Shown: positions 1-17,968, counted from the stretch's first letter. The stretch: 64,000 nt of DNA from Acidobacteriota bacterium (GCA_039683095.1 JBDKSB010000012.1:1055846-1119845), one strand, 5' to 3'. Notes: generated by a model from the sequence alone, not told the origin. Translations and numbers: made by a program.

Positions 1-947
1 ATCGCCGACTTGGACGCCTCGAGATCGGGCCGCCGGGCCACGGCCTTGGCCATGGCGTCCTCGAGGGTTATGGTGAGGGGCTTGAACTCGGGTTTGTCGG
101 CCGGGACCAGGCTCGTGCCCAGCGCCGAAGGGTCGACTTCGATATTGAGGAGCGTCCGGAGCTGGTCCTGGCATCTCTTGACCAGAGCCTCGGCTTGGAG
201 GATGTCGGCCTCGCGGCGGGCCACGGTGGCCTCGGCGTTCAGGACCTCGATGGGCGCCTTGGTGCCGACCTGGACCTCGCGCTTGGTCTTGGCCAGGAGG
301 TCTTTCCCGCTCTCCAGGGACAGCCGCAGGGTTTTGAGGTTCTCGACGCTGTAGACGAGGTTCCAATAGGCCGATTCCACCGAATAGATCGTGTCGATGA
401 GGGTGTTCCGGAACTGGCTGCGGGAGACCTCGAAGTTGTTCTGGGCGACGAGGATCTCCTTGCGGCTGACGGTCCAGCCGAAGTTCTTGAGCAGCGGCTG
501 GGTCAGGACGAAGTTCAGGCGGCTGGTGTATGACGGATTGTAGCTCTGGAAGAGCTGGTTGTTCTTCGAATAGTCGTAGCTCAACGCGGCCTGGAGCGTG
601 CCGCCGAAGGGGATCTTCTGCGTGATCGCGGCGCTGGCGCTGGTCGAGCGATCGATGTAGCTGCCGGCGGACTGGAGGGACCAGGTAGAGAGCTGCTCGT
701 AGTGGTTGCCGCTCAGGCCGACCTCGAAGGTCGGCGCGTACATCTGCCTGGCCTGCGAGACCGTGGCCGAGGCCAGGCTGGGGTTGATGACCTCGGCGGC
801 CACGTTGAGGTTGTTCTTGAGGGCCCGGAGGATCGAGTCCTCGAGGGTCAGGCTGAGTTCCTTCTTTTCCTGGGCGAAGCCGGTGCCGCAGGCCAGGGCC
901 AGCGCGGCCAGCGCAAAGAACGCGCCGGGGATCCGTCTCTTGATCAT
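1..947 (-). CDS. TolC-family outer membrane efflux protein (partial, C-terminus outside window)
   Basis: The reading frame enters from the left edge and starts at an ATG (945-947) preceded by GGAGG. The product begins with a signal peptide (MIKRRIPGAFFALAALALAC, then GTGFAQ) and continues with the alternating helix/strand pattern of TolC-type channels, including an early S-L-T-L-E-D-S-I-x-x-A-L-K-N-N motif and later coiled stretches around KTKREVQVGTKAPIEVLNAE. Such proteins form outer membrane ducts for ABC or RND exporters. It lies just downstream of a sigma-54 promoter and of the sigma-54 activator gene, so signal-controlled export is inferred. The C-terminal part is not visible. Family call is confident; substrate unknown. 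Confidence 0.9.
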   Translation of the reverse strand, partial: MIKRRIPGAFFALAALALACGTGFAQEKKELSLTLEDSILRALKNNLNVAAEVINPSLASATVSQARQMYAPTFEVGLSGNHYEQLSTWSLQSAGSYIDRSTSASAAITQKIPFGGTLQAALSYDYSKNNQLFQSYNPSYTSRLNFVLTQPLLKNFGWTVSRKEILVAQNNFEVSRSQFRNTLIDTIYSVESAYWNLVYSVENLKTLRLSLESGKDLLAKTKREVQVGTKAPIEVLNAEATVARREADILQAEALVKRCQDQLRTLLNIEVDPSALGTSLVPADKPEFKPLTITLEDAMAKAVARRPDLEASKSA

Positions 948-990: not shown

Positions 991-1007
991 TGCAAAAACG
1001 ATGCCAA
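991..1007 (-). promoter_or_regulatory. sigma-54 promoter for the tolC-like gene
   Basis: Read on the minus strand the site is TTGGCATCGTTTTTGCA: GG and GC dinucleotides exactly 10 nt apart inside a YTGGCA...TTGCW frame, the strict -24/-12 geometry of sigma-54. It lies 44 nt upstream of the tolC-like ATG, leaving room for a short leader with the GGAGG. It nearly matches the site at 3888-3904 and shares its deviation from consensus (TC instead of CG after TGGCA). Confidence 0.85.
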
Positions 1008-1053: not shown

Positions 1054-2445
1054 TCACTCCGGCCAGCGGATCCCCAGCGCCGTCATCTTGTTGAAAAGGG
1101 TCTTGCGGCTGATCCCCAGGATCCCGGCGGCCCGGGTCCGGTTGCCGCCGGCCTGCCGGAGCGCCTCGAGGATAAGGTCCCGTTCCCGGGCCGCGGCGAC
1201 GTTCTGGACGGCCTCTTTCAGGGGCGCGACCCGGTCCGGGCCGGCCGGCGCTTCGGCCGCCGCGGGGGCCACGGCGAGGCGAAGCCGGACCGGCAGGGCC
1301 GCTTCGGTCAGCCAATCGCCCTCGGCCATGACCATGGCCTCGTAGACCACGTTCTCGAGCTCGCGGACATTGCCCGGCCAGGCGTAGGCGGCCAGCCTAT
1401 GGAGCGCGCCGGGGGTGAAGCCGAACACGTTCTTCTTCAATTCGGCGGCGTACTTGCGGACGAAATGTTCGACCAGGAGCGGGATGTCCTCGGCCCTCTC
1501 ACGGAGCGGCGGCAGGGCGATCGACAGGACGGCCAGGCGGAAATAGAGGTCTTCCCGGAAGTTCCCGCGCCCGACCTCGGCCTCGAGGTCCTTGTTGGTG
1601 GCCGCGATGACGCGGACGTCGACGGGCACCGTCTTCGTCCCGCCGACCCGGGTGATCTCCCTCTCGCCCAGGGCCCGCAGCAGCTTGACCTGGGCGTCCT
1701 GGGAGAGCTCGCCGACCTCGTCGAGGAAGATCGTGCCGCCGTTCGCCTGCTCGAACTTGCCGGTCTTGTCCGAGCGGGCGTCGGTGAAGGCGCCCTTGAC
1801 GTGGCCGAAGAACTCGCTCTCGATGAGGTCGCGCGGCACGGCCCCGCAGTTGACGACGACGAACGGCCCGTCCTTGCGCGGACCGGCGAAATGCACGGCC
1901 CGGGCCGCGAGCTCCTTGCCCGTGCCGCTCTCGCCGGTGATGAGGACGGTCCCGTCGACCCGGCTGATCTTCTCCATCAGCTGGAAGACCGAGTTCATCC
2001 GGGCCGACGTGCCGACGATGTTCGAGAAGCGGTAGCGCGAGACGAGCTCCGTGCGCAAGGCCTCGACCTCGTGGCGGAGGTTGCGGACTTCGAGGATCCG
2101 GGCGATGTCGAGCAGAAGCTCCTCGTTGTCGACGGGCTTTTCCAGATACGCGGAGGCGCCGAGCTTCGTCGCCTCGACGGCGTTGCGGATGGTCCCGAAG
2201 GCCGTGACGATGATGATGCCCGGCTCGGGGCGGGCCTGGCGCAGCCCGGCCAGGACCTCGAGCCCGGGGATGTCGGGCAGGTTCATGTCGAGGATCACGA
2301 CGTCGGGGGCGAAGACGCGCGCCAGCTCCAGGCCGCGCCGGCCATTCTCGGCCGTCTCCACCTGGTAGCCCTTGTCGCCGAGGAGGACGGCGAAGACCTC
2401 GCGGATGCTCCTCTCGTCGTCGATGACCAGGATGCGGGGGTTCAT
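1054..2445 (-). CDS. NtrC-type sigma-54-dependent response regulator
   Basis: A 463-residue activator with all three expected parts. The receiver domain (about 1-120) has acidic residues D9-D10, phospho-acceptor D53 in VVILDMNLPD and K103. The AAA+ domain (about 140-370) has Walker A GESGTGKE (171-178), the sigma-54 contact loop as GAFTDA (218-223, a variant of GAFTGA) and Walker B TIFLDE. The C-terminal Fis-type helix-turn-helix is in QAGGNRTRAAGILGISRKTL. It should drive sigma-54 promoters when phosphorylated. It overlaps the upstream kinase gene by 4 nt (ATGA), so the two form a two-component pair. Sigma-54 promoters flank the pair on both sides and are the obvious targets (inference). Confidence 0.95.
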   Translation of the reverse strand: MNPRILVIDDERSIREVFAVLLGDKGYQVETAENGRRGLELARVFAPDVVILDMNLPDIPGLEVLAGLRQARPEPGIIIVTAFGTIRNAVEATKLGASAYLEKPVDNEELLLDIARILEVRNLRHEVEALRTELVSRYRFSNIVGTSARMNSVFQLMEKISRVDGTVLITGESGTGKELAARAVHFAGPRKDGPFVVVNCGAVPRDLIESEFFGHVKGAFTDARSDKTGKFEQANGGTIFLDEVGELSQDAQVKLLRALGEREITRVGGTKTVPVDVRVIAATNKDLEAEVGRGNFREDLYFRLAVLSIALPPLRERAEDIPLLVEHFVRKYAAELKKNVFGFTPGALHRLAAYAWPGNVRELENVVYEAMVMAEGDWLTEAALPVRLRLAVAPAAAEAPAGPDRVAPLKEAVQNVAAARERDLILEALRQAGGNRTRAAGILGISRKTLFNKMTALGIRWPE

Positions 2446-3698
2446 GCGTGGCTCCTCGCGCCCGCGGGCAGGCTGACCAGGACCGTGGCCCCCTCGCCGG
2501 GGCGGCTGCGCAGCTCGATCTCTCCGCCGTGGGCCTTGACGATGGTGTAGCAGATCGACAGGCCCAGGCCGGTGCCGCCCTTCTTTGTCGTGAAGAAGGG
2601 ATCGAAGACCTTCTCCAGGGTCTCCTCGGGGATGCCGGGCCCGGTGTCGGAGACGCGGACGACGGCCTTCCCGCCCTCGGGGGGCGGGACCTCGACGGTC
2701 AGCCGGCCGCCGGCCGCCATGGCCTGGACGGCGTTGAGGAAGACGTTGAGGAAGACCTGCTTGAGCTGGGACGCGTCGGCCTCGACGACGATCGGGCGCG
2801 GCGGGAAGGCCGTCCGGACCTCGATCCCGCCGGCCCGGGCCTGGATGGCGACGAGCGCCGCGCTCTCATCGACCAGGGCCAGGAGGTCGCAGGGTTCCTT
2901 GCGGATCTCGGAGGGCCGGGAGAAGGACAGCAGGGCGGACAGGATCTCGTCGATGCGGTCGGTCTCCCGCAGGGCGACGCCCAGGAGCTTCCGCTCGTTC
3001 TCCTCGCGGCAGCGCGACTCCACGTACTGGAGCGAGGAGCGGATCGAGGTCAGCGGGTTCCTGATCTCGTGGGCGGCCCCGGCGGCCAGCTCGCCGATCG
3101 TGGCCAGCCGGTCGGCCCGGAGCATGCGGCGGAAACGCTCCTTCTGCTCCTTGTAGAGGAGCGCGTTCTCGAGGGCGATCCCGGCCTGGGGCATCAGCGA
3201 GTCGATGAAGGCCGACTCCTCGGCGGAAGGCCGCCCACCCTCGCTCCTGCGGCCGACGCCGAGGATGCCGATGAGCCGGTTCATCGAGAGGACGGGGTAG
3301 AGCAGGGCCAGCCCCAGCCGCGCGATGACGGCCTTCTCGGCCTCGCCCAGGAAGCCCATGACCCCGGGGCGGGCGTCGATCTCGAGGAAGGTCTTGTTGA
3401 CCTTGAGCCAGCGGGCCAGCCGGTCCTCTCCGGAGAGGAAGACGCCGCGCAGATCGGCCGGATCGCAGCCGCAGGAGGCGCCGACCCGGAACTGGGCGAG
3501 GTCGGCGTCATGGACGAAGAGCACCAGGCGTTCGACCTTGGCGGCCTCCCGGATCGTGCCCAGGAGGTTCATGGCGATCTGATCGAAATCCTCGATCAGG
3601 TTGAGGCTCTCGTTGAATTCCCGGAGGATCGTCCAGGGAGGGGCGTTCCGGCGCCGGGCGCCCCGGACGGCCTTCCCGACGCGGCCGAAGATCGTCAC
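2442..3698 (-). CDS. GAF-domain sensor histidine kinase
   Basis: A 418-residue protein with no transmembrane segment, so a cytoplasmic sensor. Residues about 30-180 look like a GAF domain. The HisKA dimerisation helix contains H210 in AAHEIRNPLTSIRSSL, followed by a HATPase_c domain with N-box NVFLNAVQAM and the G-boxes DTGPGIP and GTGLGLSI. It starts with GTG (3696-3698) after GGGAG. It belongs to the NtrB-like group that pairs with NtrC-type regulators and overlaps the regulator gene by 4 nt. The GAF ligand is not apparent; a small molecule or redox signal is possible. Confidence 0.93.
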   Translation of the reverse strand: MTIFGRVGKAVRGARRRNAPPWTILREFNESLNLIEDFDQIAMNLLGTIREAAKVERLVLFVHDADLAQFRVGASCGCDPADLRGVFLSGEDRLARWLKVNKTFLEIDARPGVMGFLGEAEKAVIARLGLALLYPVLSMNRLIGILGVGRRSEGGRPSAEESAFIDSLMPQAGIALENALLYKEQKERFRRMLRADRLATIGELAAGAAHEIRNPLTSIRSSLQYVESRCREENERKLLGVALRETDRIDEILSALLSFSRPSEIRKEPCDLLALVDESAALVAIQARAGGIEVRTAFPPRPIVVEADASQLKQVFLNVFLNAVQAMAAGGRLTVEVPPPEGGKAVVRVSDTGPGIPEETLEKVFDPFFTTKKGGTGLGLSICYTIVKAHGGEIELRSRPGEGATVLVSLPAGARSHA

Positions 3699-3887: not shown

Positions 3888-3904
3888 TTGGCATCTTCTT
3901 TGCA
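3888..3904 (+). promoter_or_regulatory. sigma-54 promoter of the NEW3-ABC operon
   Basis: TTGGCATCTTCTTTGCA has GG and GC 10 nt apart and TTGGCA/TTGCA boxes, matching sigma-54 -24/-12 geometry. The expected transcript start is near 3915; GGAGG (3924-3928) and the ATG at 3936 follow. The adjacent NtrC-type regulator gene supports the call. Confidence 0.87.
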
Positions 3905-3935: not shown

Positions 3936-5423
3936 ATGAAGCTGACCAAGGCCATCGCCATCGCGGCCGCGACGCTCGTCCTGGCCGTCGCCCTGCACCC
4001 GCAGGCCCAGGAATCCCAGAACATGAAGCTCCTGCGCCTGAAGAGCGCCCAGCTCTCGCTCGAGCTCAAGAAGTCCGACTATGAACGTTATCTCAAGCTC
4101 CGGGAGGACGGCCTGGCCGCCGAGGCTGATTTCGCCCAGCGCCAGACGGCCTACCTCCAGGCCCAGGTCGACTACCAGCAGGCCCTGATCAGCTTCATGG
4201 GCAGCGAAGCCCGCATCTCTGTCGCCAGCGCGGTCAAGTACCAGGACCGCAGCGGCAAGAAATTCGTCCGGGTCTCCCTGCGCTACGTTTCGAAGGAGCT
4301 CAAGGAGCTGGCCAACCTCAAGATCAGCGCCGAGGACCTCTTCCCGCTCGACTTCATGAAGGAGATCAAGGACGTCTACGTCTCGCTCCTCTCGGAGGGC
4401 AAGATCATCTCCGACCCCTATGAGAAGTCGATCCCGGCCATGCCCATCGAGACCGAACGGGAGGTCACCTTCCAGCTCCTCAAGGACGTCGAGAACCTCG
4501 ATATCAGCGTCTCTTATTCCGGCAAGGCGGAGACGACCTCCGTCTTCCTCCAGAAAGGCGTCAGCGCCAACATGGTCACGGTCAACTCGGCCCAGTTCTC
4601 GCAGGAGGCCGACCTCGAGAGCACCGCGACCTACGACCTGTCGCTGGAGAAGTTCAGCGGCGAGGCCAACGTCTTCAAGCTCGAGACCGTCAACCTGCCG
4701 GCGCAGATCACGTACGAGTTCAGCGACCCGACGACGAGCGCCCGCCTGTCGCAGATCAAGTTCAGCGAGGGCGTCACGAGCCTCAAGCTCCAGCTGAAGC
4801 TCTTCCTGCCAAAGAACCCGGACGAGCGGGTCGTCCTGGACAAGCCCCTCGAGTTCTTCGTCCTGGCCCTCGACAACGACCAAACGGACAAGCTCCGCGG
4901 CCTCGAGACGGCGGCCGGCGGGACCGGGCTCGGCGCCGCGGCCATCGACGGCCTCAAGGCCGGCTACGTCAAGCTCGAGCTCATCCCCCGGGGCGTGCCC
5001 AAGGTCGAGGTCCAGGCCGTCAACCTCTACCACGAGATCAAGGTCGGCGACACGATCGGCATGGACGTGACCATCCGGAACACGGGCACGCGCCGGCTCA
5101 ACAACGTCCGCGTCTTCTGCGACCTGCCGCTCAACTGGCGGGCCGAGATCGCGCCCGACCTGATCGGGACGCTCGAGCAGAACAAGGACCAGGTCGTCCG
5201 GATCAAGTTCCTGCCGCCGGACGGCGTCTCGGTCGGCGACTACGAGCCGAAGATCCGGACCGACGCCCTGGCCGACAACCGCCGGGTCGAGTCCGAGGAC
5301 AAGATCGTGCGCATCCATATCTCGTCGAAGGCCAACGTGCTCGGCATCGGCGCCCTGGTGCTGCTGCTCATCGGCCTGCTCGTCGGCATCGTCGTCTTCG
5401 GCATCAAGCTGACGCGGCGGTAA
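3936..5423 (+). CDS. exported, membrane-anchored NEW3-type protein of the ABC operon
   Basis: A 495-residue protein starting at ATG 3936, seven nt after GGAGG; a longer upstream frame would start before the predicted transcript start. It has a signal peptide (MKLTKAIAIAAATLVLAVAL), a helical, probably coiled-coil segment (about 25-90), a beta-rich middle, and a C-terminal Ig-like region around VGDTIGMDVTIRNTGTRRL resembling NEW3 / NPCBM-associated domains. It ends with one transmembrane helix (VLGIGALVLLLIGLLVGIVV) and a short basic tail. So most of it should be periplasmic, tethered to the inner membrane. It precedes an ABC ATPase and three permeases and is the first gene after the sigma-54 promoter. 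A role as accessory or substrate-handling subunit is inferred. Confidence 0.8.
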   Translation: MKLTKAIAIAAATLVLAVALHPQAQESQNMKLLRLKSAQLSLELKKSDYERYLKLREDGLAAEADFAQRQTAYLQAQVDYQQALISFMGSEARISVASAVKYQDRSGKKFVRVSLRYVSKELKELANLKISAEDLFPLDFMKEIKDVYVSLLSEGKIISDPYEKSIPAMPIETEREVTFQLLKDVENLDISVSYSGKAETTSVFLQKGVSANMVTVNSAQFSQEADLESTATYDLSLEKFSGEANVFKLETVNLPAQITYEFSDPTTSARLSQIKFSEGVTSLKLQLKLFLPKNPDERVVLDKPLEFFVLALDNDQTDKLRGLETAAGGTGLGAAAIDGLKAGYVKLELIPRGVPKVEVQAVNLYHEIKVGDTIGMDVTIRNTGTRRLNNVRVFCDLPLNWRAEIAPDLIGTLEQNKDQVVRIKFLPPDGVSVGDYEPKIRTDALADNRRVESEDKIVRIHISSKANVLGIGALVLLLIGLLVGIVVFGIKLTRR

Positions 5424-5450
5424 GCCGGGTACGAAGAAGAGGAGGATCCG

Positions 5451-6194
5451 ATGATCGACACGCTTCCGATCCTGAAAGCCGACGATCTGTCCAAGCGCTA
5501 CGAGGACGGGGTCCTGGCCCTGGACCACCTCAACCTGGAGGTCCGCCCGGGCGAGGTCTACTGCCTGCTCGGCGCCAACGGCGCCGGCAAGACGACGGCG
5601 ATCAACCTCTTCCTGGGCTTCATCCCGCCGACGACGGGGACCTGCGCCATCAGGGGCATCGACGTCAACCGGGACCCGCTCGAGGCCAAGAGGCACGTCG
5701 CCTTCGTCTCCGAGAACGTCATGCTCTACGGAAACTTCACGGCCCGCCAGAACCTCGACTTCTTCGCCAAGCTCGGCGGCCGGGCCGGCCTGGGCAAAGA
5801 CGACTATTACCAGGTCATGCGCCGGGTCTCGCTCCAGGAGAAGGCCTTCGAGCAGCGGGTCAAGAACTTCTCCAAGGGCATGCGGCAGAAGCTCGGCATC
5901 TCCATCGCCATCATCAAGGACGCGCCGGGCATCCTGCTCGACGAGCCGACCTCGGGCCTCGACCCCAAGGCGGCCGAGGAGTTCCAGGAGATCCTGGCCG
6001 AGCTCAAGCAGGAAGGCAAGGCCATCCTGATGTCGACCCACGACATCTTCCGGGCCAAGGAGATCGGCGACCGGGTCGGCATCATGAAGGAAGGCCGCCT
6101 GGTCATGGAGCGGACGCGCCAGGAGCTGCAGTACGAGGACCTGGTCAAGATCTACATCGACTACATGAAGTCCGAGCCGCTGGCTCTCCCATGA
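5451..6194 (+). CDS. ABC transporter ATP-binding protein
   Basis: A 247-residue ATPase with Walker A GANGAGKT (41-48), an ABC signature written FSKGMRQK, Walker B GILLDEP followed by the D-loop SGLDP, and a switch histidine in MSTHD. It is of the CcmA / ABC-2 exporter type. ATG 5451 follows GAGGAGG. It is the only ATPase in front of three permease genes, so it probably energises all of them as an inner-membrane exporter. Confidence 0.95.
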   Translation: MIDTLPILKADDLSKRYEDGVLALDHLNLEVRPGEVYCLLGANGAGKTTAINLFLGFIPPTTGTCAIRGIDVNRDPLEAKRHVAFVSENVMLYGNFTARQNLDFFAKLGGRAGLGKDDYYQVMRRVSLQEKAFEQRVKNFSKGMRQKLGISIAIIKDAPGILLDEPTSGLDPKAAEEFQEILAELKQEGKAILMSTHDIFRAKEIGDRVGIMKEGRLVMERTRQELQYEDLVKIYIDYMKSEPLALP

Positions 6195-6228
6195 ACGCCC
6201 GCGCCGGCCGCGCCAGGAGGCTGCCGCC

Positions 6229-7671
6229 ATGTTGAGAACGATCGTCAAGAAGGAAGTGCTGGAGACCGTCTTCAGCTACCGCTTTCCGCTTTTCGCCGTC
6301 ATCTCTCTCCTCCTCATCCCGCTCGGCCTGGCCGTCAACCAGGCGAATTACGCCAAGCGGGTGCGTGATTACAGCGACCAGGTCCGGCTGGCCGACGAGG
6401 CCGCGGCGGCCATCAAGATCCAGGACGTCATGGCCGGGACGGTGACCATCAAGGGCTTTCGGCCGCCCGCGCCTCTCTCGGTCTTCACCCAGGGCTTCGA
6501 GAGCGCGCTTCCCCGCTACTACGAGTTCACCCAGGACGGCTTCAGGCCGGGCGAATCGGCGAGCGACGACGAGACCATCCTCTCGGTCCAGGGCAAGGTC
6601 GATTTCATCTTCATCGTCCAGATGGTCATCAGCCTCATCTCCATGCTCTTCGCGTCGGACATGATCTCGGGGGAGAAGGAATCGGGGACGCTGCGGGCCA
6701 TGCTGGCCAACAGCCTGCCGCGGGACACCCTCCTCGCCGGCAAGATCGGCGGCGGCTTTCTGGCCCTCTGGGCGCCGTTCCTCCTGTCCTTCCTGATCGG
6801 CGCGGCCGTCCTCATGCTCGGGACCTTCCCCCTGGCCGGCGCCGGGACGGCGGCCCGCGTCCTTGTCGTCCTGCTCGCGACGTCCCTTTTCGTCCTGACC
6901 TACTTCACGATCGGCGTCGCCGTCTCGGCCAGCACGTCCAAGGCCCGGACCTCGCTCGTCGCCATCCTTATCGTCTGGGCCGCCTTCCAGCTGATCGTGC
7001 CGCGTCTCGGCGACATGGTCGCCCGCCTCATCCATCCGGTCCCGACGGAAACGCAGATCTCCCTGCAGAAATCGCTCCTTGTCCGCGCCCTCGACCTCGA
7101 GACGGCCAAGGACCTCGGCCATCAGTGGGACCTCATCTTCGCCTCCGCGGCCCCGGAGGCCCGGGACAACCAGGATTCCGCTGAGAACAAGAAATGGGGC
7201 CCGATCCGGGACGGCATCCAGCAGCGGACCAGGGAGCGCAAGTCTCAGCAGCTCTCGGCCATCGACGAGACCTATCTCCAGGAGCGGCGGCGGCAGCTCA
7301 GCCTGGCCGTCAGCCTGTCGGTGCTGTCGCCGAGCGCCGCCTTCGCCCGCTTCATCGCCGACGTCTGCGGCACGGGCGAGCTCGAGCGGGCCCGTTACCT
7401 CGAGGCCGTCCGGGCCCACCAGAAGGCCCTTGACGGCGAGCTCTTCAGCAAGGTCAAGCGGACCCTCATGATCCATGACGGCGGCCGGATGTCGATGGGC
7501 TTCCAGGCCCTGCCCGTCGACGTCTCGAAGCTGCCCCGGTTCTCGATCACGCCGGCGTCGACGGCCGAGGCGTTCCAGGCGAACACGGGCAGCCTCCTTT
7601 CGCTCCTCTTCTGGCTCATCGCGCCCTTCGCCTACGCTTACGCTAAGTTCATCAGGTACGACGTGAGGTGA
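6229..7671 (+). CDS. ABC-2 type permease subunit (first of three)
   Basis: A 480-residue membrane protein. One helix lies near the N-terminus (FPLFAVISLLLIPLGLAV), then a long extracytoplasmic stretch, then a bundle starting at FIFIVQMVISLISMLFA followed by GEKESGTLRAMLANSLPR, the coupling region typical of ABC-2 permeases. A second extracytoplasmic domain with charged helices follows, and a final helix ends in KFIRYDVR. The next two genes end in nearly the same motif, which points to gene triplication. ATG 6229 has AGGAGG upstream. Substrate unknown. Confidence 0.9.
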   Translation: MLRTIVKKEVLETVFSYRFPLFAVISLLLIPLGLAVNQANYAKRVRDYSDQVRLADEAAAAIKIQDVMAGTVTIKGFRPPAPLSVFTQGFESALPRYYEFTQDGFRPGESASDDETILSVQGKVDFIFIVQMVISLISMLFASDMISGEKESGTLRAMLANSLPRDTLLAGKIGGGFLALWAPFLLSFLIGAAVLMLGTFPLAGAGTAARVLVVLLATSLFVLTYFTIGVAVSASTSKARTSLVAILIVWAAFQLIVPRLGDMVARLIHPVPTETQISLQKSLLVRALDLETAKDLGHQWDLIFASAAPEARDNQDSAENKKWGPIRDGIQQRTRERKSQQLSAIDETYLQERRRQLSLAVSLSVLSPSAAFARFIADVCGTGELERARYLEAVRAHQKALDGELFSKVKRTLMIHDGGRMSMGFQALPVDVSKLPRFSITPASTAEAFQANTGSLLSLLFWLIAPFAYAYAKFIRYDVR

Positions 7672-7714
7672 GACGGGAATGCGCGTGGGATCACCGATTC
7701 AGAGGGAGAGGAGC

Positions 7715-8965
7715 ATGATCGGCACCATCGCCCGCAAGGAGATCGCCTCCAACCTCCTCAGCTACAAGTTCCTCGTCGTCCTCCTGCTCATGGTCCTGCT
7801 CGTGGCCACGAGCCTGTTCGTCATGCACCGCGATTTCGCCGAGCGCATGGCCGATTACCAGGTCATCCGCCCGAAGCCCGGCGCGCCCATCGCCGTCGTC
7901 CCGCCCAACCCGCTGTCGATCTTCGCCAAGGGCCTGGAGAACGCCATGACCCGGTCTTTCGAGGTCGAGGTCATCGGTGTCACCGTCCGGGCCGGCCAGT
8001 CGTCCGGGAACATCGTCTATTCGTTCTTCCCCGCCCCGGATTTCCTCTACGTCGTCCGGGTCGTCCTGTCGCTCGTCGCCCTGCTCTTCGGCTTCGACCA
8101 GGTCAGCCGGGAGCGCGAGCAGGGGACGCTGAAGCTCGTCCTCGGCAACTCCGTCTCCCGGGCCGGGGTCCTGGCCGGCAAGTGGCTCGGCAACTTTCTC
8201 AGCCTGGCCGCGCCCTTCCTTCTCGTGACGGTCCTGGGGACGGCCATGCTGCTCCTCGACCCGAACGTCCGCTTCTCGGCCGGCCAGCTCGGGCGTCTCG
8301 GCCTCATCCTGGCCCTTTCCCTCCTCTACCTGGCCTTCTTCCTGAGCCTGGGCATGCTCGTCTCGGCCATGACCAGGCGGGCGGCCACCTCGATCATCGT
8401 CCTCCTGTTCGCCTGGGCGCTCCTGGTGTTCGTCCTGCCCAACCTGGGCACGCTCGCGGCCCGCCAGTTCGTCCGCGTCCCCTCGGTCCAGGCCCTGAGC
8501 GAGAAGCGGGAGCAGACCTGGACGCGCGAGATCCTGCTCGGGATCTCCGGGAAGGCCGACATCGGCGAGCACTGGCGGACGATCGGCCGGGAGAACGACC
8601 GCATGGAGGAGGACTACCGGCGCAGGTTCGAGCGCCTGGTCCGCCTCTCCCGCAACATCAACCGCCTCTCGCCGGCGGCCAGCCTCCTCGACGCCGCGAC
8701 CGGGATCGCCGGCACGGGCATCGACGAGGAGATCCGCCTCAAGACGGAGGTCGTCCGCTACAAGAACTCGATCATCGACCCGGTCATCGACGACATGCTC
8801 GCCGGCCGCCGCGACGGCCTGTATCCGGCCTTCGCCTACCGGCCGAGGGCTGTCGGCGAGGTCTTCGCCGCGGGGGCCTGGTTCGACGCGGCCTGGCTCG
8901 CTGTCTTCAACATCCTGGCCTACGCCCTGGCGTTCGTCGCATTCGTCCGCTACGACGTGAGGTGA
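7715..8965 (+). CDS. ABC-2 type permease subunit (second of three)
   Basis: A 416-residue permease. I chose ATG 7715 because GGAGAGGAG precedes it directly; an upstream in-frame ATG at 7679 would add 12 polar residues without such a site. Same layout as its neighbours: N-terminal helix (FLVVLLLMVLLVATSLFV), the motif NPLSIFAKGLE in the first outer domain, REREQGTLKLVLGNSVSR at the coupling region, and a C-terminus in FVRYDVR. It lies between two paralogues in the sigma-54-driven operon and probably forms a mixed permease complex with them (inference). Confidence 0.9.
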   Translation: MIGTIARKEIASNLLSYKFLVVLLLMVLLVATSLFVMHRDFAERMADYQVIRPKPGAPIAVVPPNPLSIFAKGLENAMTRSFEVEVIGVTVRAGQSSGNIVYSFFPAPDFLYVVRVVLSLVALLFGFDQVSREREQGTLKLVLGNSVSRAGVLAGKWLGNFLSLAAPFLLVTVLGTAMLLLDPNVRFSAGQLGRLGLILALSLLYLAFFLSLGMLVSAMTRRAATSIIVLLFAWALLVFVLPNLGTLAARQFVRVPSVQALSEKREQTWTREILLGISGKADIGEHWRTIGRENDRMEEDYRRRFERLVRLSRNINRLSPAASLLDAATGIAGTGIDEEIRLKTEVVRYKNSIIDPVIDDMLAGRRDGLYPAFAYRPRAVGEVFAAGAWFDAAWLAVFNILAYALAFVAFVRYDVR

Positions 8966-8969
8966 GACG

Positions 8970-10400
8970 ATGGGAAAAACGCTCGTCCTCAAGGAGCTCC
9001 GGTCCCACCTCGTCTCTTTCCGCTTCCTGGCGGGGTTCGTCCTGCTGTTCGTCCTCGTCGTCGTCACCGCCGTCGTCCTGACGAATGATTACGTCCGCAA
9101 GCTCGACGAGTACTCGGCCCGGCAGGCGGAGATCGACCGCTACCTCAGCCAGTACGCCCACTTCAACCGGATCGGCGCGGTCCTGCGGCCGAGCCAGCCG
9201 CCCATCCCCTTCTGGGCCCTCGTCCGCGGCCTGTCGGCCGACGTCAACAGGGACGGCTTCGACGACGATCCGCTGCCGGTCATGTTCCCGCTCATCGACC
9301 TGACCTTCATCGTCGGCGTCCTGATCAGCCTGCTGGCCCTCATCCTGACCTACGACGCCGTCTGCGGCGAGAAGGAGGACGGGACCCTGAAGCTCATGCT
9401 GGCCAACGGACTGCCGCGCTCGAAGATCATCCTGGCCAAGGCCGCCGGCGCCGGCCTGACCCTGGCCGGCCCGCTCGTTGTCTCGCTCGCCGCCGGCATG
9501 CTGGTCATCCTGCTCCACCCGAAGGTCGACTGGAGCGGGATCGACTGGGCCGCGCTCGGCCTGATCGTCGCCGGGGCGGCGATCTACGGCGGCGTCTTCC
9601 TGCTCGTCGGCATCCTGGTCTCGTCCGTCCACCGGTCGAGCGCGTCGTCGATCATGACCTCGCTCTTCATCTGGACGCTCCTGGTCCTGGTCGTGCCCAA
9701 CCTCAGCCCCTATGTGGCATCGTTCCTCTCGCCGGCCCCGTCGCGGATCATGGTGGCCCGGGAGACGGAGCGCCTGGGCGACACCGACCGGGACGATCTC
9801 GGCAACAAGCTCCAGGCCCGGTACCGGGCGGAGGTCCTCCAGGAATATCCCGTGCTGGCCGAGCGGCTGTCCGAGGCCGAGGTCAAGAGGCGCGTCGCCG
9901 AAGACCCCCTCTACCGGAAGGCGTACGAGGCCAGGCGGGCCGCCGCGGAAAGGGCCTGGAACGAGGCCAACCGGATCCAAAGCGCCAAGATCGACGAGAT
10001 CCGGGACGACCTGAGGCGGAAGGAAGAGGCCCAGACGGGCCTGGCCCGGGCGATCTCGATGATCTCACCGCTGGCCGATTTCAGCTACCTGGCCACGGAC
10101 CTGTCGTCGACGGGGACCCGGAACCAGGTCCATTTCGGCCGGCTGGCCAGGCTCTGGAGCCGGAGCTTCGATGACGATTACCGGCCGAAGAAGGTCGCGG
10201 CGATGAGGGCCAAGGACCCCACGGTGGATACCTGGAACACGGCCGTGGACATGTCCGACGCGCCCCGGTTCCGCTACGCCGAGGAGGGGCTGGGAGGGAG
10301 GATCCAGGCCGCCCTGCCGCCCTTCGGCGTCCTCGCCGGCTGCTGCGTCGTCCTGTTCGCCGCGGCATACGCGGCCTTCATCCGTTACGACGCCCGCTGA
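8970..10400 (+). CDS. ABC-2 type permease subunit (third of three)
   Basis: A 476-residue permease starting 4 nt after the previous stop codon. The N-terminal helix is FLAGFVLLFVLVVVTAVVL; the coupling region reads GEKEDGTLKLMLANGLPR; the C-terminus is FIRYDAR. Between them is a highly charged extracytoplasmic domain (about 250-370) rich in E, R and K helices. It shares the general plan of the preceding two permeases but has its own outer domain, so the three copies have diverged in the part most likely to face substrate or partners. Last gene of the operon, followed by the palindromic element. Confidence 0.9.
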   Translation: MGKTLVLKELRSHLVSFRFLAGFVLLFVLVVVTAVVLTNDYVRKLDEYSARQAEIDRYLSQYAHFNRIGAVLRPSQPPIPFWALVRGLSADVNRDGFDDDPLPVMFPLIDLTFIVGVLISLLALILTYDAVCGEKEDGTLKLMLANGLPRSKIILAKAAGAGLTLAGPLVVSLAAGMLVILLHPKVDWSGIDWAALGLIVAGAAIYGGVFLLVGILVSSVHRSSASSIMTSLFIWTLLVLVVPNLSPYVASFLSPAPSRIMVARETERLGDTDRDDLGNKLQARYRAEVLQEYPVLAERLSEAEVKRRVAEDPLYRKAYEARRAAAERAWNEANRIQSAKIDEIRDDLRRKEEAQTGLARAISMISPLADFSYLATDLSSTGTRNQVHFGRLARLWSRSFDDDYRPKKVAAMRAKDPTVDTWNTAVDMSDAPRFRYAEEGLGGRIQAALPPFGVLAGCCVVLFAAAYAAFIRYDAR

Positions 10401-12009: not shown

Positions 12010-13290
12010 ATGCGCGTTCCCAGGTCGGTGCTGGGCGGATTCCTGATCGTCGTCCTCGTCGCCGCAGGCGTCCACTTCCTCGTCCTCCGCAAGGACCCTG
12101 CCGCCGCTGAAAGCCGGTCGGGAGCCGACTCTCCCGCGTCTTCTTCCGCGTCCTCCGCTCCAGCCGCAGGCCAGAAGGCCGAGGCCGCGCCGCTTCCGGT
12201 CAAGGTCAGCAAGGCCTTCGTCGGCGACCTGGTCATGACCCTCAAGTCGCCGGGCGAAGCCTACACCGAGAAGCGCGTCGTCCTCAAGGCCGAGGTCGGC
12301 GGCACCGTCAAGAGCCTCCTGGCCGCCGAGGGGCGCCACGTCCGCCAGGGCGACCTGCTGGTCGAGATCGACGACCGCGAGTTCCGTCTCAACCTCGAGC
12401 GGCTCGAGGCCCAGCGCCTGCGCTATCTCTCCGAGCTTTTCCTGGAGCGGCAGTTCTCCATCGCCGAGGAGCCGCTCGCCCAGTCCGTCGTGGACAAGCT
12501 GGCCGGGGCCCAGGCCGATTACGACCGCGTATCCGAGGGCTTCAAGAGCGGCGTGGCCTCCCAGGCGGACCTGGAGAAGGCCCAGGCCGCGCTCGAGCTG
12601 GCCCTGATCGAGGCCGGCCGCAAGAAAGAGGAGGTCCAGGCCGCCACCAAGGGCCTGACCCAGGCCGAGGTCGACGTCAAGATCGCCCGCCTGGCGCTCG
12701 AGAAGACCCGCGTCCGGGCCCCCTTCGCCGGCATCGTCACCGACCTCAAGCTCTCCCCCAACGAGCGCCTCGACGCCGGCCGCGAGCTTTTCACCCTGGT
12801 CGACATCAGCCGCATCAAGGTCAAGGCCAAGGTCCTGGAGAGCGAGGTCGGCAAGGTCGTGGCCGGCCGCAACGTCGATCTTCGCTTCAGCGCCTTTCCC
12901 GGCCGGACCTTCCGCGGCCGCATCGAGGCCGTCAGCCCGATCGTGAACACCGAAGACAAGACCTGCGCCGTCTACGTGGCCATGGACAATCCGTCCGAGG
13001 AGATCAAGCCGGGCATGCACGCCGAGGTCGAGTTCCCGACCGAGATCTTCGCCGGCCGGCTCCTCGTCCCCCAGCAGGCCATTCTGGTCCGGGGCGGCCG
13101 CAAGCTCGTTTTCGCCGTCGAGGGCGACACGGCCAAGTGGCGCTACGTCGAAGTCGGCCTGGAGAACGAGCGCTTCGCCGAGGTCCTGCCGGGGAGGGAG
13201 CCGGGCTGGGGCGTCGCCGCGGGCGACGCCGTCATCGTCGAAGGGCACGTCACGCTGGCCCACGACACCAGGGTCACCGTCGCGCAGTAG
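12010..13290 (+). CDS. RND efflux periplasmic adaptor (HlyD/AcrA family)
   Basis: A 426-residue protein starting after a strong AGGAGGTG. An uncleaved or signal-anchor helix (SVLGGFLIVVLVAAGVHFLVL) is followed by an Ala/Ser/Pro linker, then the barrel/lipoyl half motif LKAEVGGTVKSLLAAEGRHVRQGDLLVEIDD, a long alpha-hairpin, the second lipoyl half VRAPFAGIVTDLKLSPNERLDAGREL, a beta-barrel and a membrane-proximal domain. It should bridge the two RND permeases downstream to an outer membrane channel. No outer membrane channel gene is in this operon. A propeller protein gene is placed between adaptor and permeases. Confidence 0.93.
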   Translation: MRVPRSVLGGFLIVVLVAAGVHFLVLRKDPAAAESRSGADSPASSSASSAPAAGQKAEAAPLPVKVSKAFVGDLVMTLKSPGEAYTEKRVVLKAEVGGTVKSLLAAEGRHVRQGDLLVEIDDREFRLNLERLEAQRLRYLSELFLERQFSIAEEPLAQSVVDKLAGAQADYDRVSEGFKSGVASQADLEKAQAALELALIEAGRKKEEVQAATKGLTQAEVDVKIARLALEKTRVRAPFAGIVTDLKLSPNERLDAGRELFTLVDISRIKVKAKVLESEVGKVVAGRNVDLRFSAFPGRTFRGRIEAVSPIVNTEDKTCAVYVAMDNPSEEIKPGMHAEVEFPTEIFAGRLLVPQQAILVRGGRKLVFAVEGDTAKWRYVEVGLENERFAEVLPGREPGWGVAAGDAVIVEGHVTLAHDTRVTVAQ

Positions 13291-13314
13291 CCGCCGGATC
13301 CACAAGGGGGCCGC

Positions 13315-14535
13315 ATGAAAAAGGCACTGTCCAGGACCGTTACCGCGATCATCATCCTCCTATTCGGCCTCGCGGCCGCCGCGCCGGCGGCGCCGCAGAA
13401 GATCGAGACCGTCGACGGAGTCCGCATCGTCCACAACAATCCGGGCGGCGTGTGGGGGAAGACCCCCAAGGTCGCCCTCGAGCTCGTCCGCAAGATCGGC
13501 GACATAGACACCGAGGACGAACATCTGGCCTTCAACTTCCCCTCCGACGTCGCCGTGGACAAGGACGGCAACATCTACATCCTGGATTCCGCCAACGCCC
13601 GCGTTCAAGAATTCGGCCCCGATGGCCGGTACCTGGCCACTATCGGCCGCAAGGGCCAGGGGCCGGGCGAGTTCATCATGCCGGATTCTCTCGATTTTGA
13701 CAAGGACGGGAACCTCGTCGTGGCCGACTCGTTCCAGAATCGCGTCCAGGTCGTCATCGGCGGCGGCCGGGACGTCCGGTCCATCGTCATCAAAGAGGGG
13801 ATGATCAGCGGCGTTCGTCCCCTGGCGTCCGGGGATCTCGCGGGCAAGGCTTCGACCTATTCCTTCCCCCGGCAAGGCCAGCCGGCCAAGACCGCCGGCG
13901 AGATGCGCCTGTTCCGGCGGATCGCGCCGGACGGCCGGATCGCCGCCTCGTTCGGCCTTCTGACCGATTTCGGAGAGCCCATGACCAACGCCATGGGGAA
14001 CGCCGCTCAATACGCTATCGACGGGCAGGGCGCCTTCGCCGTCAGCTTCAACGCCCAGAACAGGGTCGAGAAGTACGCTCCGGACGGGACGCTCCTCTGG
14101 CGGGCCGACCGCCCGCTCGGCTATGACACCGCGGTCCGGAAGAAAGGCAAGATCGAGCAGACCGGCCAGGGCATCTCGATGTCCGCGCCGGAGATGAACC
14201 GCTGCTCCGCGGGCGTCGCCGTCGACGGCCGGGGGCGGATCTGGGTCCTGACCTGCGCCCGCCAGCTCAGGAAAGAGGAAGAGGTCCGGACCTCGATGAC
14301 GAGCGTCGGCGGCCGCGCCGGCGTCAGCAGCGTCTCCGTCAAGACCGAAGGCAACACGGACCTCCGGACGACGGACGCCTTCCGGCTCGACGTCTTTGCC
14401 CCGGACGGCGTCCTCCTCGGCCAGGTCCCGCTCGCCCATTTCGCCGACGTCATCCGCATCGCCGGCGACAGCCTGTTCCTCATCGACCGCGAGCGCGGCG
14501 TCACGGTCTACCAGTACCGGATCGTGGAGAAATGA
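13315..14535 (+). CDS. exported 6-bladed beta-propeller (NHL-like) protein
   Basis: A 406-residue protein with signal peptide (MKKALSRTVTAIIILLFGLA) and repeated blade motifs such as FPSDVAVDKDGNIYILDSANARVQEF, FDKDGNLVVADSFQNRVQVV and AVDGRGRIWVLT, spaced about 45-60 residues apart as in NHL/6-bladed propellers. It should act in the periplasm or at the surface. It sits 24 nt after the adaptor gene and about 80 nt before the first RND permease, so co-transcription is likely. No enzymatic motif was seen. A binding or scaffold role for the pump is possible but unproven; it could also be a passenger gene. Confidence 0.8.
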   Translation: MKKALSRTVTAIIILLFGLAAAAPAAPQKIETVDGVRIVHNNPGGVWGKTPKVALELVRKIGDIDTEDEHLAFNFPSDVAVDKDGNIYILDSANARVQEFGPDGRYLATIGRKGQGPGEFIMPDSLDFDKDGNLVVADSFQNRVQVVIGGGRDVRSIVIKEGMISGVRPLASGDLAGKASTYSFPRQGQPAKTAGEMRLFRRIAPDGRIAASFGLLTDFGEPMTNAMGNAAQYAIDGQGAFAVSFNAQNRVEKYAPDGTLLWRADRPLGYDTAVRKKGKIEQTGQGISMSAPEMNRCSAGVAVDGRGRIWVLTCARQLRKEEEVRTSMTSVGGRAGVSSVSVKTEGNTDLRTTDAFRLDVFAPDGVLLGQVPLAHFADVIRIAGDSLFLIDRERGVTVYQYRIVEK

Positions 14536-14614
14536 GCCAGGCGTCATTCGCGGCGGCCGGCACGAGGCGCGGGGAAGAGGAGGACGACATGACATCGAGC
14601 CCGGGGAGGCCGTC

Positions 14615-17600
14615 ATGAAGCTCGCCAAGCTGGCCGTCGACCGGCCGGTGACGATGTACATGTTCTACTTCGCCGTCATCCTCCTCGGCGCCGTCTCGCT
14701 CCGGGAGCTCTCGGTCGACCTCCTGCCCGACATCAGCTATCCGCGGCTTTCGGTCATCACCAACTACCCCGGCGTCGCGCCCGAGGAGGTCGAGACGCTC
14801 ATCACCGCGCCGCTCGAGTCGGCCGTCAGCCGCGTCCCCGGCCTGCGCCGCGTCGAGTCGGTCTCCAAGGAGGGCGTTTCGCTCCTGACCCTCGAGTTCG
14901 ACTGGGGCACGGACATGGACTTCACCATGCTCCACACCCGCGAGCAGCTCGACAACGCCAAGGACCGCTTCCCCGAGGACGCGGAGAGCCCGACGATCAT
15001 CCCGCTCGACCCGCAGAGCCGGCCGATCATGACCCTGGCCCTGTCCGGCGACAGGACGCTCCTCGAGCTCAAGGAGCTGGCCGAGGAGCTCATCAAGCCC
15101 CGCCTCGAGCAGATCGAGGGCGTCGGCTCGGCCGAGATCACCGGCGGCGTCGAGCGCGAGATCCAGATCGAGGCCGATCCCGCCAAGCTGGCCCTCTACG
15201 CCCTGACCATCGAGGACATAGCCGCGCGCGTCGACGCCTTCAACCGCAACCTCCAGGGCGGGACCATCCGCAAGGGGACGTTCAAGTACGCCCTCCGCGT
15301 CGTCGGCGAGTTCGAGTCGCTCGACGAGATCGCCGAGATCGGCCTCCTCGTCACCAAGGAGGGCGGCGTCGTCCGCCTCCGCGACGTGGCCCGGGTCCTG
15401 GACTCGGTCAAGGAGCGCCAGGGCATGACCCGCCTGGACGGCGCCGAGAGCATCGGCCTCCTCGTCCGCAAGGAGTCCGGGGCCAACACGGTCAAGGTTA
15501 CCAGGCTCGTCCGCGAGGCCATCGGCCAGATCCGCCGGGAGAACCCCGGCATCGCGCTGAGCGTCGTCAGCGAGCAGGCCCGGACGATCGAGGGGGCCAT
15601 CGGGGCCGTCAAGAGCGAGCTCTGGCAGGGCGCCGTGCTGGCCTTCCTGACCCTGCTCATCTTCCTTCAGGAATGGAAGACGCCGCTCATAATCGGCACG
15701 GTCATCCCGGTCTCGATCATCGGGGCCTTCAGCTTGCTCTTCTTCGGCCACATCACCCTCAACATCATGTCTCTCGGCGGCCTGGCCCTGGCGGTGGGCA
15801 TGCTCGACGACTGCTCCGTCGTCGTCTCGGAGAACATCTTCCGGCACCGCAGCCTCGGCAAGGGGCTGAAGGAGGCGGCCTACGTCGGGACCAGGGAGGT
15901 CGGCCCGGCGGTCATCTCGACGGCCCTGACGACCATCGTCGTCTTCCTGCCGGTCATCTACGTTCACGGCGTGGCCGGCCAGCTCTTCAAGGACACGGCC
16001 CTGACCGTCACCTTCGCCCTGCTGGCCTCGCTCCTCGTCTCCCTGACCCTGATCGCGACGCTCGAATCGCGCGAATTCGATTTCGGCATGGGCCGGGAGC
16101 GGCGCTGGCGCTTCACCTGGGGCCTGGGCCGGATCTGGAAGCCGCGGCGAGCGGCGGCCGCCGCCCCCGCCGGCGACTGCCCGGGCGATCCGGCCGACCC
16201 GTCCGGCCCGGCCGCGGGCCCGCCCGCGAAGACGCGATCGCGCCGGCCCGCTTTTCTGGTCTACCCCGTCCGGGCCGTCCGCGTGGCCGTCTACGCGGTC
16301 TTCAAGGCCGCCGGCTTCGCCCTCAACGTCCTTGTGAGCTTCGTCGTCCAGCTGGCCGCGTTCGCCGGGCACTATCTTGCCCTGCCCTTCCGCCCGCTCC
16401 TCAAGCTGGCCTACGGGGCCTTCAACGCCGTCTACAACCGGTTCATCGACGGCTACCAGCGCTTCCTCGGCTGGAGCCTCGACCACAAGGGCCGGGTCAT
16501 GGCCTGGACGGTCGTCTTCTTCGTCATCGTCTTCGCCCTGGGCGGCCTCATCCGCCGCGAGCTCATGCCGCCGATGGAGACGACGACGTTCGAGCTCGAC
16601 CTGAAGATGCCCGTCGATTTTTCCTTCGAGCAGACGACCGAGATGTCCGTGATGCTCGAGTCGCACCTGCGGCGCCTCGCCCCGGTCAAGACCGTCCTGT
16701 CGCAGGTCGGGATCGTCAGCGGCATGGAGAGCGCCGATCCCTCGATCTCCGTCAACTCGGCCCGCCTCTACGTCGAGGTCCGCAGGCCCAGGGACCTCGG
16801 GGGCGTCCTCGACGCCGCCCGCGACCGGCTGGCCCGCTTCCCCGACATCGCCTATACCGTCGTCCGCGAGGATTCGACGTTCAGTCAGTTCCTGGCCCTG
16901 TCGGGGGCCGAGATCGGCCTCCAGGTCAAGGGCAAGGACCTCGACCGCCTCAAGGCGATCGCGGCCGACCTGACGTCGCGGCTGGCCGCCATCCCCGGCA
17001 TCGCCGACGTGACGACGAATATCGGCGAGGGCAAGCCCGAGTTCAAGGTCACGGTCAACAAGGAGGCCCTCGGGAGGTACCCGGGCCTCTCGCCCGCGAC
17101 GATCGGCGATTTCCTCGTCAGCGCCGTGCGCGGCCGGGTGGCCACCCAGTTCCGGGAGATGGAGAAGAAATACGATATCCTCGTCCGCCTCGACGACGCC
17201 TCGCGCGAGAACATCGAGACCCTGCTCGGCGAGACCCTGCCCTTCGAGGGCCGGGCCGTCCCGCTCCGCGATCTCGTGTCCTACGAGATCGTCCGCGGCC
17301 CCCGCGAGATCCGCCGCGAGAACCAGCAGCGCGAGGTCCTCGTCTCGGCCAACCTCAGGGGCCGCAAGCTCAGCGAGGTGACGCCGGCCGTCGACAAGGC
17401 CATCGCCGGCCTGCGCCTGCCGACCGACTACCGCGTCGCCTGGAGCGGCGAGCGCGAGGAGATGTCGCGCTCCTTCAAGTCGCTCGTCCTGGCCCTGCTC
17501 CTCGCGGCGCTCCTGACCTACATGATCATGGCCGCCCAGTTCGAATCCCTCGTCCATCCCTTCATCGTCATGCTCACCCTGCCCATGGGCGCGGCCGGGG

Positions 17601-17968
17601 CCATCGTCGCCCTGCTCCTGACGGGCGGGACTTACAACGTCATCTCGATCATCGGCCTGGTCGTCCTGGTCGGCATCGTCGTCGACAACGCCACGGTCAA
17701 GATCGACTACACCAACCAGCTCCGGCGCGGCGGGATGCCCCTGCGGCAGGCCGTCGAGGAGGGCAGCCACGTCCGGTTGCGGCCGATCCTCATGTCCACG
17801 GGCAGCACGCTCGTCGGCCTCATCCCCATGGCCCTGGCCATGGAGCGCGGGGCCGAGCTCATGCAGCCGCTGGCCGTCGTCGTCATCGGCGGCCTGACCT
17901 TCTCGACCTTCATGACCCTGATCCTGATCCCCGTGGCCTATGAGTGGGTGGAGAGCCGCAAGCGATGA
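14615..17968 (+). CDS. RND efflux inner membrane permease (first of tandem pair)
   Basis: A 1117-residue AcrB/MdtB-type pump. I use ATG 14615 (MKLAKLAVDRPVTMYMFYFAVILLGAVSL) preceded by GGGGAGG; the frame is open further upstream but that part overlaps the propeller gene. It has two repeats, each with a large periplasmic loop, and TM4-type motif LGGLALAVGMLDDCSVVVSENI. An unusual insertion of about 110 residues (about 510-625) between the halves is Ala/Pro-rich and then amphipathic/hydrophobic (FALNVLVSFVVQLAAFAGHYLALPF), so the topology may have extra membrane-associated helices. It overlaps the next permease by ATGA. Confidence 0.93.
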   Translation: MKLAKLAVDRPVTMYMFYFAVILLGAVSLRELSVDLLPDISYPRLSVITNYPGVAPEEVETLITAPLESAVSRVPGLRRVESVSKEGVSLLTLEFDWGTDMDFTMLHTREQLDNAKDRFPEDAESPTIIPLDPQSRPIMTLALSGDRTLLELKELAEELIKPRLEQIEGVGSAEITGGVEREIQIEADPAKLALYALTIEDIAARVDAFNRNLQGGTIRKGTFKYALRVVGEFESLDEIAEIGLLVTKEGGVVRLRDVARVLDSVKERQGMTRLDGAESIGLLVRKESGANTVKVTRLVREAIGQIRRENPGIALSVVSEQARTIEGAIGAVKSELWQGAVLAFLTLLIFLQEWKTPLIIGTVIPVSIIGAFSLLFFGHITLNIMSLGGLALAVGMLDDCSVVVSENIFRHRSLGKGLKEAAYVGTREVGPAVISTALTTIVVFLPVIYVHGVAGQLFKDTALTVTFALLASLLVSLTLIATLESREFDFGMGRERRWRFTWGLGRIWKPRRAAAAAPAGDCPGDPADPSGPAAGPPAKTRSRRPAFLVYPVRAVRVAVYAVFKAAGFALNVLVSFVVQLAAFAGHYLALPFRPLLKLAYGAFNAVYNRFIDGYQRFLGWSLDHKGRVMAWTVVFFVIVFALGGLIRRELMPPMETTTFELDLKMPVDFSFEQTTEMSVMLESHLRRLAPVKTVLSQVGIVSGMESADPSISVNSARLYVEVRRPRDLGGVLDAARDRLARFPDIAYTVVREDSTFSQFLALSGAEIGLQVKGKDLDRLKAIAADLTSRLAAIPGIADVTTNIGEGKPEFKVTVNKEALGRYPGLSPATIGDFLVSAVRGRVATQFREMEKKYDILVRLDDASRENIETLLGETLPFEGRAVPLRDLVSYEIVRGPREIRRENQQREVLVSANLRGRKLSEVTPAVDKAIAGLRLPTDYRVAWSGEREEMSRSFKSLVLALLLAALLTYMIMAAQFESLVHPFIVMLTLPMGAAGAIVALLLTGGTYNVISIIGLVVLVGIVVDNATVKIDYTNQLRRGGMPLRQAVEEGSHVRLRPILMSTGSTLVGLIPMALAMERGAELMQPLAVVVIGGLTFSTFMTLILIPVAYEWVESRKR

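Follow-up and report, generated by a model that had tools for sequence, protein, structure and literature searches.

The described systems closest to the gene set reported here are the tripartite ATP-binding cassette (ABC) exporters and the NosDFY transporter. YbhG-YbhFSR is a tripartite ABC exporter with a HlyD-family adaptor, and NosD is a beta-helix protein; the ECF transporters, which are importers with other folds, have a shared energising module. Our gene set lies on a 64,000-nt stretch of DNA (JBDKSB010000012.1:1055846-1119845, referred to as the window), on contig C12 of a 3.3-Mb genome of an Aminicenantes bacterium (Acidobacteriota). Positions 3936-10400 of the window hold five open reading frames (ORFs), one for a NEW3 protein, one for an ABC ATPase, and three for ABC-2 permeases, in the order that an earlier reading of the bare DNA (the sequence-only reading) had described and with the expected Pfam domains. 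All results given here are computational, and the genomes are mostly metagenome-assembled. On balance, we favor the view that the set encodes a sigma-54-regulated ABC-2 exporter that would span both membranes, with the NEW3 protein as its adaptor and a shared ATPase. The system is most like a tripartite ABC exporter with a NosY-like engine, and it lacks a defining feature of the HlyD-adaptor family and one of NosDFY.

The distribution of the gene set shows that it is not confined to one genome. Of 297 genomes sampled from the phylum, 27 carry NEW3 relatives, with identities of 29-88%. The phylum search gave 29 matches, two of which (G154 and G194) fell within ordinary adaptor genes and were left out; these adaptor genes match NEW3 through residues 23-95 only, which is the hairpin region described below. 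Across 84,980 species genomes, a scan found 52 loci, which belong to Aminicenantes, other Acidobacteriota, KSB1, B38, and Bacteroidales. The gene string, for which the sequence-only reading had proposed a search of Acidobacteriota and their relatives, does recur, at 68 distinct loci that include KSB1, B38, and Bacteroidales. At 51 of the 68 an ATPase of this type stands in the same gene run as NEW3, with one to seven permeases, and many of the remaining 17 loci end at contig ends. Among the 297 genomes, all 22 with a strong match to the C1-type permease (E<1e-40; see below) also carry NEW3. Weaker matches to this permease occur in 23 genomes, just three of which have NEW3, and so probably represent other permease families. 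The carriers are uncultured soil and gut bacteria. Since the set recurs across phyla, its occurrence is more than chance, and TolC, the NEW3 protein, the ATPase, and the permeases are a real conserved system.

The NEW3 protein (3936..5423, + strand; 495 aa), the proposed TolC-docking adaptor, has a signal peptide, an alpha-hairpin, tandem immunoglobulin (Ig)-like domains, and a C-terminal membrane helix. A structure model was built on 50 relatives, with a mean predicted local distance difference test score (pLDDT) of 84.5 and a predicted template modeling score (pTM) of 0.50. It has three helices (residues 28-57, 63-88, and 468-494), with beta-strands from 93 to 463. The first two helices form the hairpin (residues 28-88; 4017..4199, +), which is like those of membrane fusion proteins and is the coiled coil that the sequence-only reading had seen; its tethered protein with an Ig-like domain is borne out as well. 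The NEW3/NPCBM_assoc Ig-like domain was recognized by Pfam at residues 370-437 (5043..5246, +; 4.8e-9) and in 50/50 relatives, and the C-terminal helix (5337..5417, +) ends in a conserved KLTRR tail. With regard to a beta-barrel or membrane-proximal domain, a fold search with the model gave tandem Ig-like sandwiches over residues 91-466, and a missing row in such a search is no proof of absence. The last Ig domain resembles those of sialidase and Vpr (Z about 12). No adaptor is among the top rows of this fold comparison; Ig-like domains fill the list, which is therefore uninformative on the hairpin, and the hairpin was assessed by sequence profiles instead.

None of the 50 relatives matches the Pfam families HlyD_D23 or Biotin_lipoyl. 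In HlyD-family adaptors, a lipoyl/barrel-sandwich domain is split around the hairpin, whereas the NEW3 hairpin begins at residue 28, directly behind the signal peptide, with no space for a first lipoyl half. Together, these two observations put the NEW3 protein outside the HlyD family as defined. It starts with the hairpin, continues as an Ig-like rod, and closes with a C-terminal helix anchor, without a lipoyl domain. Although outside that family, the protein may work like a HlyD-type adaptor, and it is probably an adaptor of new architecture.

Evidence for this comes from the hairpin. The CzcB adaptor model is matched by 41 of 50 NEW3 proteins and RND_mfp by 21 of 50. The first six PDB matches of the NEW3 family profile are all adaptors and are all reached via residues within 18-122, the hairpin region; the best are EmrA, an RND membrane fusion protein, MexJ, and ZneB (E 0.006-0.1). 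An hhalign comparison of the NEW3 and adaptor alignments gave 94.7% with an E-value of 6e-8 over 44 columns at the tip, in the hairpin only, while the controls of NEW3 with TolC and with the permeases gave 4% and 1%, respectively. The spacing RxxxLxxxxxxS at the hairpin tip (the RLS motif) is kept in NEW3 relatives, with R51 in 25/26, L55 in 49/50, and S62 in 40/50, and reads R51-xxx-L55-xxxxxx-A62 in the window protein (4086..4121, +), as in HlyD-family adaptors except for Ala at the third position. RxxxLxxxxxxS is the TolC-binding motif in AcrA, MacA, and MexA, and RxxxLxxxxxxT takes its place in HlyD (PMC3391258). Position 62 is Ser or Ala at every TolC-linked locus, and Pro or Arg is confined to loci without a local TolC. 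From the sequence, we infer that the tip of the NEW3 hairpin may dock on TolC.

The DNA to the left of NEW3 provides a candidate channel and a putative switch. The 5' part of a TolC/OEP gene (1..947, - strand; OEP 1.2e-44) occupies the edge of the window and runs on to its left (L004:7228-8853). Between it and NEW3 lies a divergent two-component pair, composed of an NtrC-type sigma-54 activator (response regulator; 1054..2445, -) and a GAF-domain histidine kinase (2442..3698, -). Two sigma-54-type promoter sites, TGGCATCTTCTTTGCA (3889..3904, +), 31 bases upstream of the NEW3 start codon, and TGGCATCGTTTTTGCA (991..1006, -), upstream of the TolC gene, are among the three best of the 64 kb. With sites before both genes, NEW3 and TolC are probably co-activated by the activator encoded between them. 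The sequence-only reading had described an adjacent sigma-54-driven tolC-like gene; the gene and its site are there, although the gene is divergent and lies beyond the kinase/regulator pair. It had also pointed to the left of position 1 for an adaptor. None of the usual HlyD kind is present in the stretch read, and NEW3 itself looks like the adaptor.

This linkage extends to other genomes. Of 90 regions upstream of NEW3 or TolC genes at related loci, 16 contain a strict sigma-54 pattern, against an expectation of about one, and a looser pattern gave sites upstream of TolC at L040, L075, L081, L082, and L099 among others, where TolC and NEW3 are co-directional. Upstream DNA of 2.5 kb or more is available for 49 loci, of which 24 have a TolC/OEP gene and 21 a kinase/regulator pair. 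In most Bacteroidales loci and many Aminicenantes loci, TolC is encoded directly upstream of NEW3 on the same strand, and the two genes overlap by 4 bp at six loci (L040, L075, L080, L081, L082, and L083). A TolC/OEP gene is thus linked to the ABC genes, as in tripartite ABC exporters, and the combination of an ABC engine, an inner-membrane-anchored periplasmic protein with an RLS hairpin, and a TolC/OEP gene is shared with MacAB-TolC and HlyBD-TolC. Besides the architecture of its adaptor, what sets the present system apart from these exporters is its engine, in which several NosY-like permeases accompany a single ATPase.

The ATPase (5451..6194, +; 247 aa; Pfam ABC_tran 2.3e-26) is nearest among solved structures to the ABCA phospholipid transporters (3e-59), followed by NosF (3e-33). 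Permeases P1 (6229..7671, +; 480 aa), P2 (7715..8965, +; 416 aa), and P3 (8970..10400, +; 476 aa) all carry ABC2_membrane_2 (Pfam, 1e-28 to 6e-33); the P2 ORF is open from 7679, and its start was set at 7715 after its relatives. Their C-termini are FIRYDVR, FVRYDVR, and FIRYDAR, as the sequence-only reading had reported, and their pairwise identity is only 25-29%. In the P1 model (pLDDT 85, pTM 0.80), six helices span the membrane and long helical insertions lie outside it. The core of the model aligns with NosY with a Z of 26.9 (2.2 A over 249 residues), and NosY is the sole credible PDB match of the permease family profile (3.7e-16).

Such close likeness to NosY suggests that the locus could serve in maturation or delivery, where NEW3, like NosD, would pass an item moved by the ABC engine to a periplasmic or surface client and the TolC gene would be an unrelated, co-regulated neighbor. 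The layout of a secreted third protein encoded alongside an ATPase and a NosY-like permease is that of NosDFY, the ATPase has NosF among its nearest solved relatives, and TolC is absent from many loci. However, the third protein here is no beta-helix; it combines an Ig-like rod, a membrane helix, and a hairpin of the adaptor type. At 276 aa, NosY is 140-260 residues shorter than the permeases, of which a locus has one to seven, often in fixed pairs. Moreover, a linked TolC gene and a sigma-54 two-component pair belong to the picture here, with TolC and NEW3 overlapping at the six loci above and having common sigma-54 sites at others. We therefore consider a NosDFY-like role unlikely.

The ATPase brings in another explanation, namely that the permeases lift a lipid or lipoprotein amphiphile from the inner membrane and the NEW3 rod guides it over the periplasm without TolC. 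That the ATPase is nearest to the ABCA family, whose members move phospholipids, hints weakly at an amphiphilic cargo and agrees with this, as do the large helical extracytoplasmic insertions of the permeases and the existence of loci without TolC. ATPase likeness is, however, a poor predictor of cargo, no lipid-binding fold was recognized in the fold search with the NEW3 model, and the conserved motif at the hairpin tip would be left without a role. This route seems improbable to us.

A tree of 131 permeases resolved several groups, and these groups are ancient. Particular groups are neighbors in fixed order: P2-P3 14 times, Xa-Xb 13, Za-Zb 4, Wa-Wb 2, and Va-Vb 2. Both P2-P3 and Xa-Xb pairs are found in Acidobacteriota and in Bacteroidales (L109); the L109 locus also has its ATPase gene duplicated between two different permease pairs (L109:13000-20310). 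Exceptions are contig ends, L070, and L064, where P2 occurs without P3. A loss of P2 in L070 was discarded as an artefact of ORF calling or frame disruption, since the coding sequence is present. One-permease systems of the C1 type, with ATPase and NEW3, occur at L046, L074, L079, L085, and L095. The simplest reading is that P2-P3-type pairs are obligate hetero-pairs, while P1, a solitary orthologous group, and C1 are presumably homodimeric. The sequence-only reading had taken the three permeases as a unit, which does not hold, as loci have one to seven permeases and several of these come in conserved pairs. The window trio is probably made up of P1 as a solitary permease and P2-P3 as a pair, with one ATPase for all.

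Alternatively, all permeases of a locus might form one large hetero-oligomer around one adaptor, which would compete only with the shared-motor part of our proposal. In its favor, the permeases are co-encoded, and some groups (P1 and Q) mostly accompany others. Against it, single permeases occur with NEW3 and ATPase at L046, L085, L091, and L095, and permease groups combine freely between loci. We hold a single large assembly to be doubtful.

Several observations weigh against the exporter with a NEW3 adaptor. The window NEW3 protein has Ala at the Ser position of the tip motif, and Bacteroidales NEW3 proteins have Asn at the Arg position; in MacA, the same Ser-to-Ala change (S143A) retains some activity (PMC3391258). 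The hairpin likeness covers only some 44-70 residues, and coiled coils are prone to weak matches. Neither a lipoyl nor a barrel domain, which assemble known adaptors into a hexameric channel, was found in the NEW3 protein, and with a pTM of only 0.50 its domain arrangement is uncertain. No local TolC is present at about half of the loci, chiefly outside Aminicenantes and Bacteroidales, and the window genome has about a dozen OEP genes, which makes the identity of the TolC partner uncertain. Finally, the window genome holds a C1 cluster (L003:8153-10313 on contig C1) in which a single C1-type permease is accompanied by an ATPase of its own, 65% identical in protein sequence to the window ATPase, with no NEW3 gene alongside. 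The sequence-only reading had held that permeases with separate ATPases would count against the set, and this cluster is in part such a case, although its relatives in other genomes do adjoin NEW3. The C1 cluster may borrow the window NEW3 protein. An RHS-repeat-like C-terminal fragment (by eye; L003:6677-7477) is located just before this cluster.

Gene linkage, the hairpin with its motif, the paired inheritance of the permeases, and the promoter sites are read directly from the sequence. For the exporter that we favor, we infer the following course. The NEW3 protein would be anchored in the inner membrane by its single C-terminal helix, and its rod of tandem Ig-like domains would extend outward with the hairpin at the far end, where the RxxxLxxxxxxS/A tip would dock on the TolC-family channel encoded nearby. 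The ATPase would act as a shared motor for one permease dimer after another; in the window these are probably a homodimer of P1 and a heterodimer of P2 and P3, with more in other genomes. The extracytoplasmic insertion of each dimer would pick a cargo, possibly lipid-like or amphiphilic, and hand it to the adaptor (or meet the adaptor) for export. A more specific proposal, put forward tentatively, is that this is a separate kind of tripartite exporter. Its TolC-docking adaptor would have arisen outside the HlyD family through the fusion of an RLS-type hairpin with an Ig-like rod, and it would work with one ABCA/NosF-like ATPase common to a variable set of NosY-like permease dimers, so that a single motor and a single exit duct would serve several cargoes. 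One motor for several membrane subunits resembles the ECF transporters in logic only.

The set was also compared with the GldA-GldF-GldG gliding transporter. The ATPase is GldA-like, and P2 (1.7e-5) and P3 (0.0015) have weak GldF similarity, but the scores fall far short of the cut-offs (GldF, 24.9 bits versus 288.5; GldA, 139.5 versus 402.6). Neither a NEW3 protein nor TolC is known to belong to the gliding transporter. A curated name for the whole set was likewise sought in NCBIfam and Pfam, which yield domain-level names only, with equivalog scores far below cut-off. No earlier description was found in the open-access literature and, as far as that literature shows, the system is undescribed. 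The suggestion of an undescribed, envelope-spanning transport system is thus supported by the joint occurrence of TolC, NEW3, ATPase, and permeases, together with the TolC-docking-type hairpin.

To the right of the permeases, TsaD precedes a row of genes for an RND adaptor, a secreted protein of repeat type, and two RND pumps (12010-21102), which have no adjoining TolC gene of their own. In the genus, the RND adaptor and RND genes are kept close to the NEW3 cluster, so both sets might use the left-hand TolC. A further OEP/TolC-family gene is located inside the window at 37614-38834 on the minus strand. Clustering of unassigned ORFs near the loci, examined for a further conserved gene hinting at cargo, gave mostly shadow ORFs. 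Two genes, for a GT4 glycosyltransferase and a mandelate-racemase-like protein, turn up repeatedly near the clusters, in Aminicenantes only (L107:2847-5082; L004:5955-7052), and form no clear operon with the transporter. An FtsX/MacB-type ABC permease-like gene (by eye) follows a one-permease NEW3 cluster at L088:11653-14058.

If our proposal is true, proteins of two different architectures have come to dock on TolC, and the hairpin tip, rather than the lipoyl and barrel domains, would be the part of an adaptor needed for TolC opening. One ATPase that drives exchangeable permease pairs would mirror, on the export side, the importers with a shared motor, and would offer a natural experiment on how permeases select their cargo. 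It would also provide the NEW3 protein family with a first testable function across Acidobacteriota and Bacteroidales genomes.

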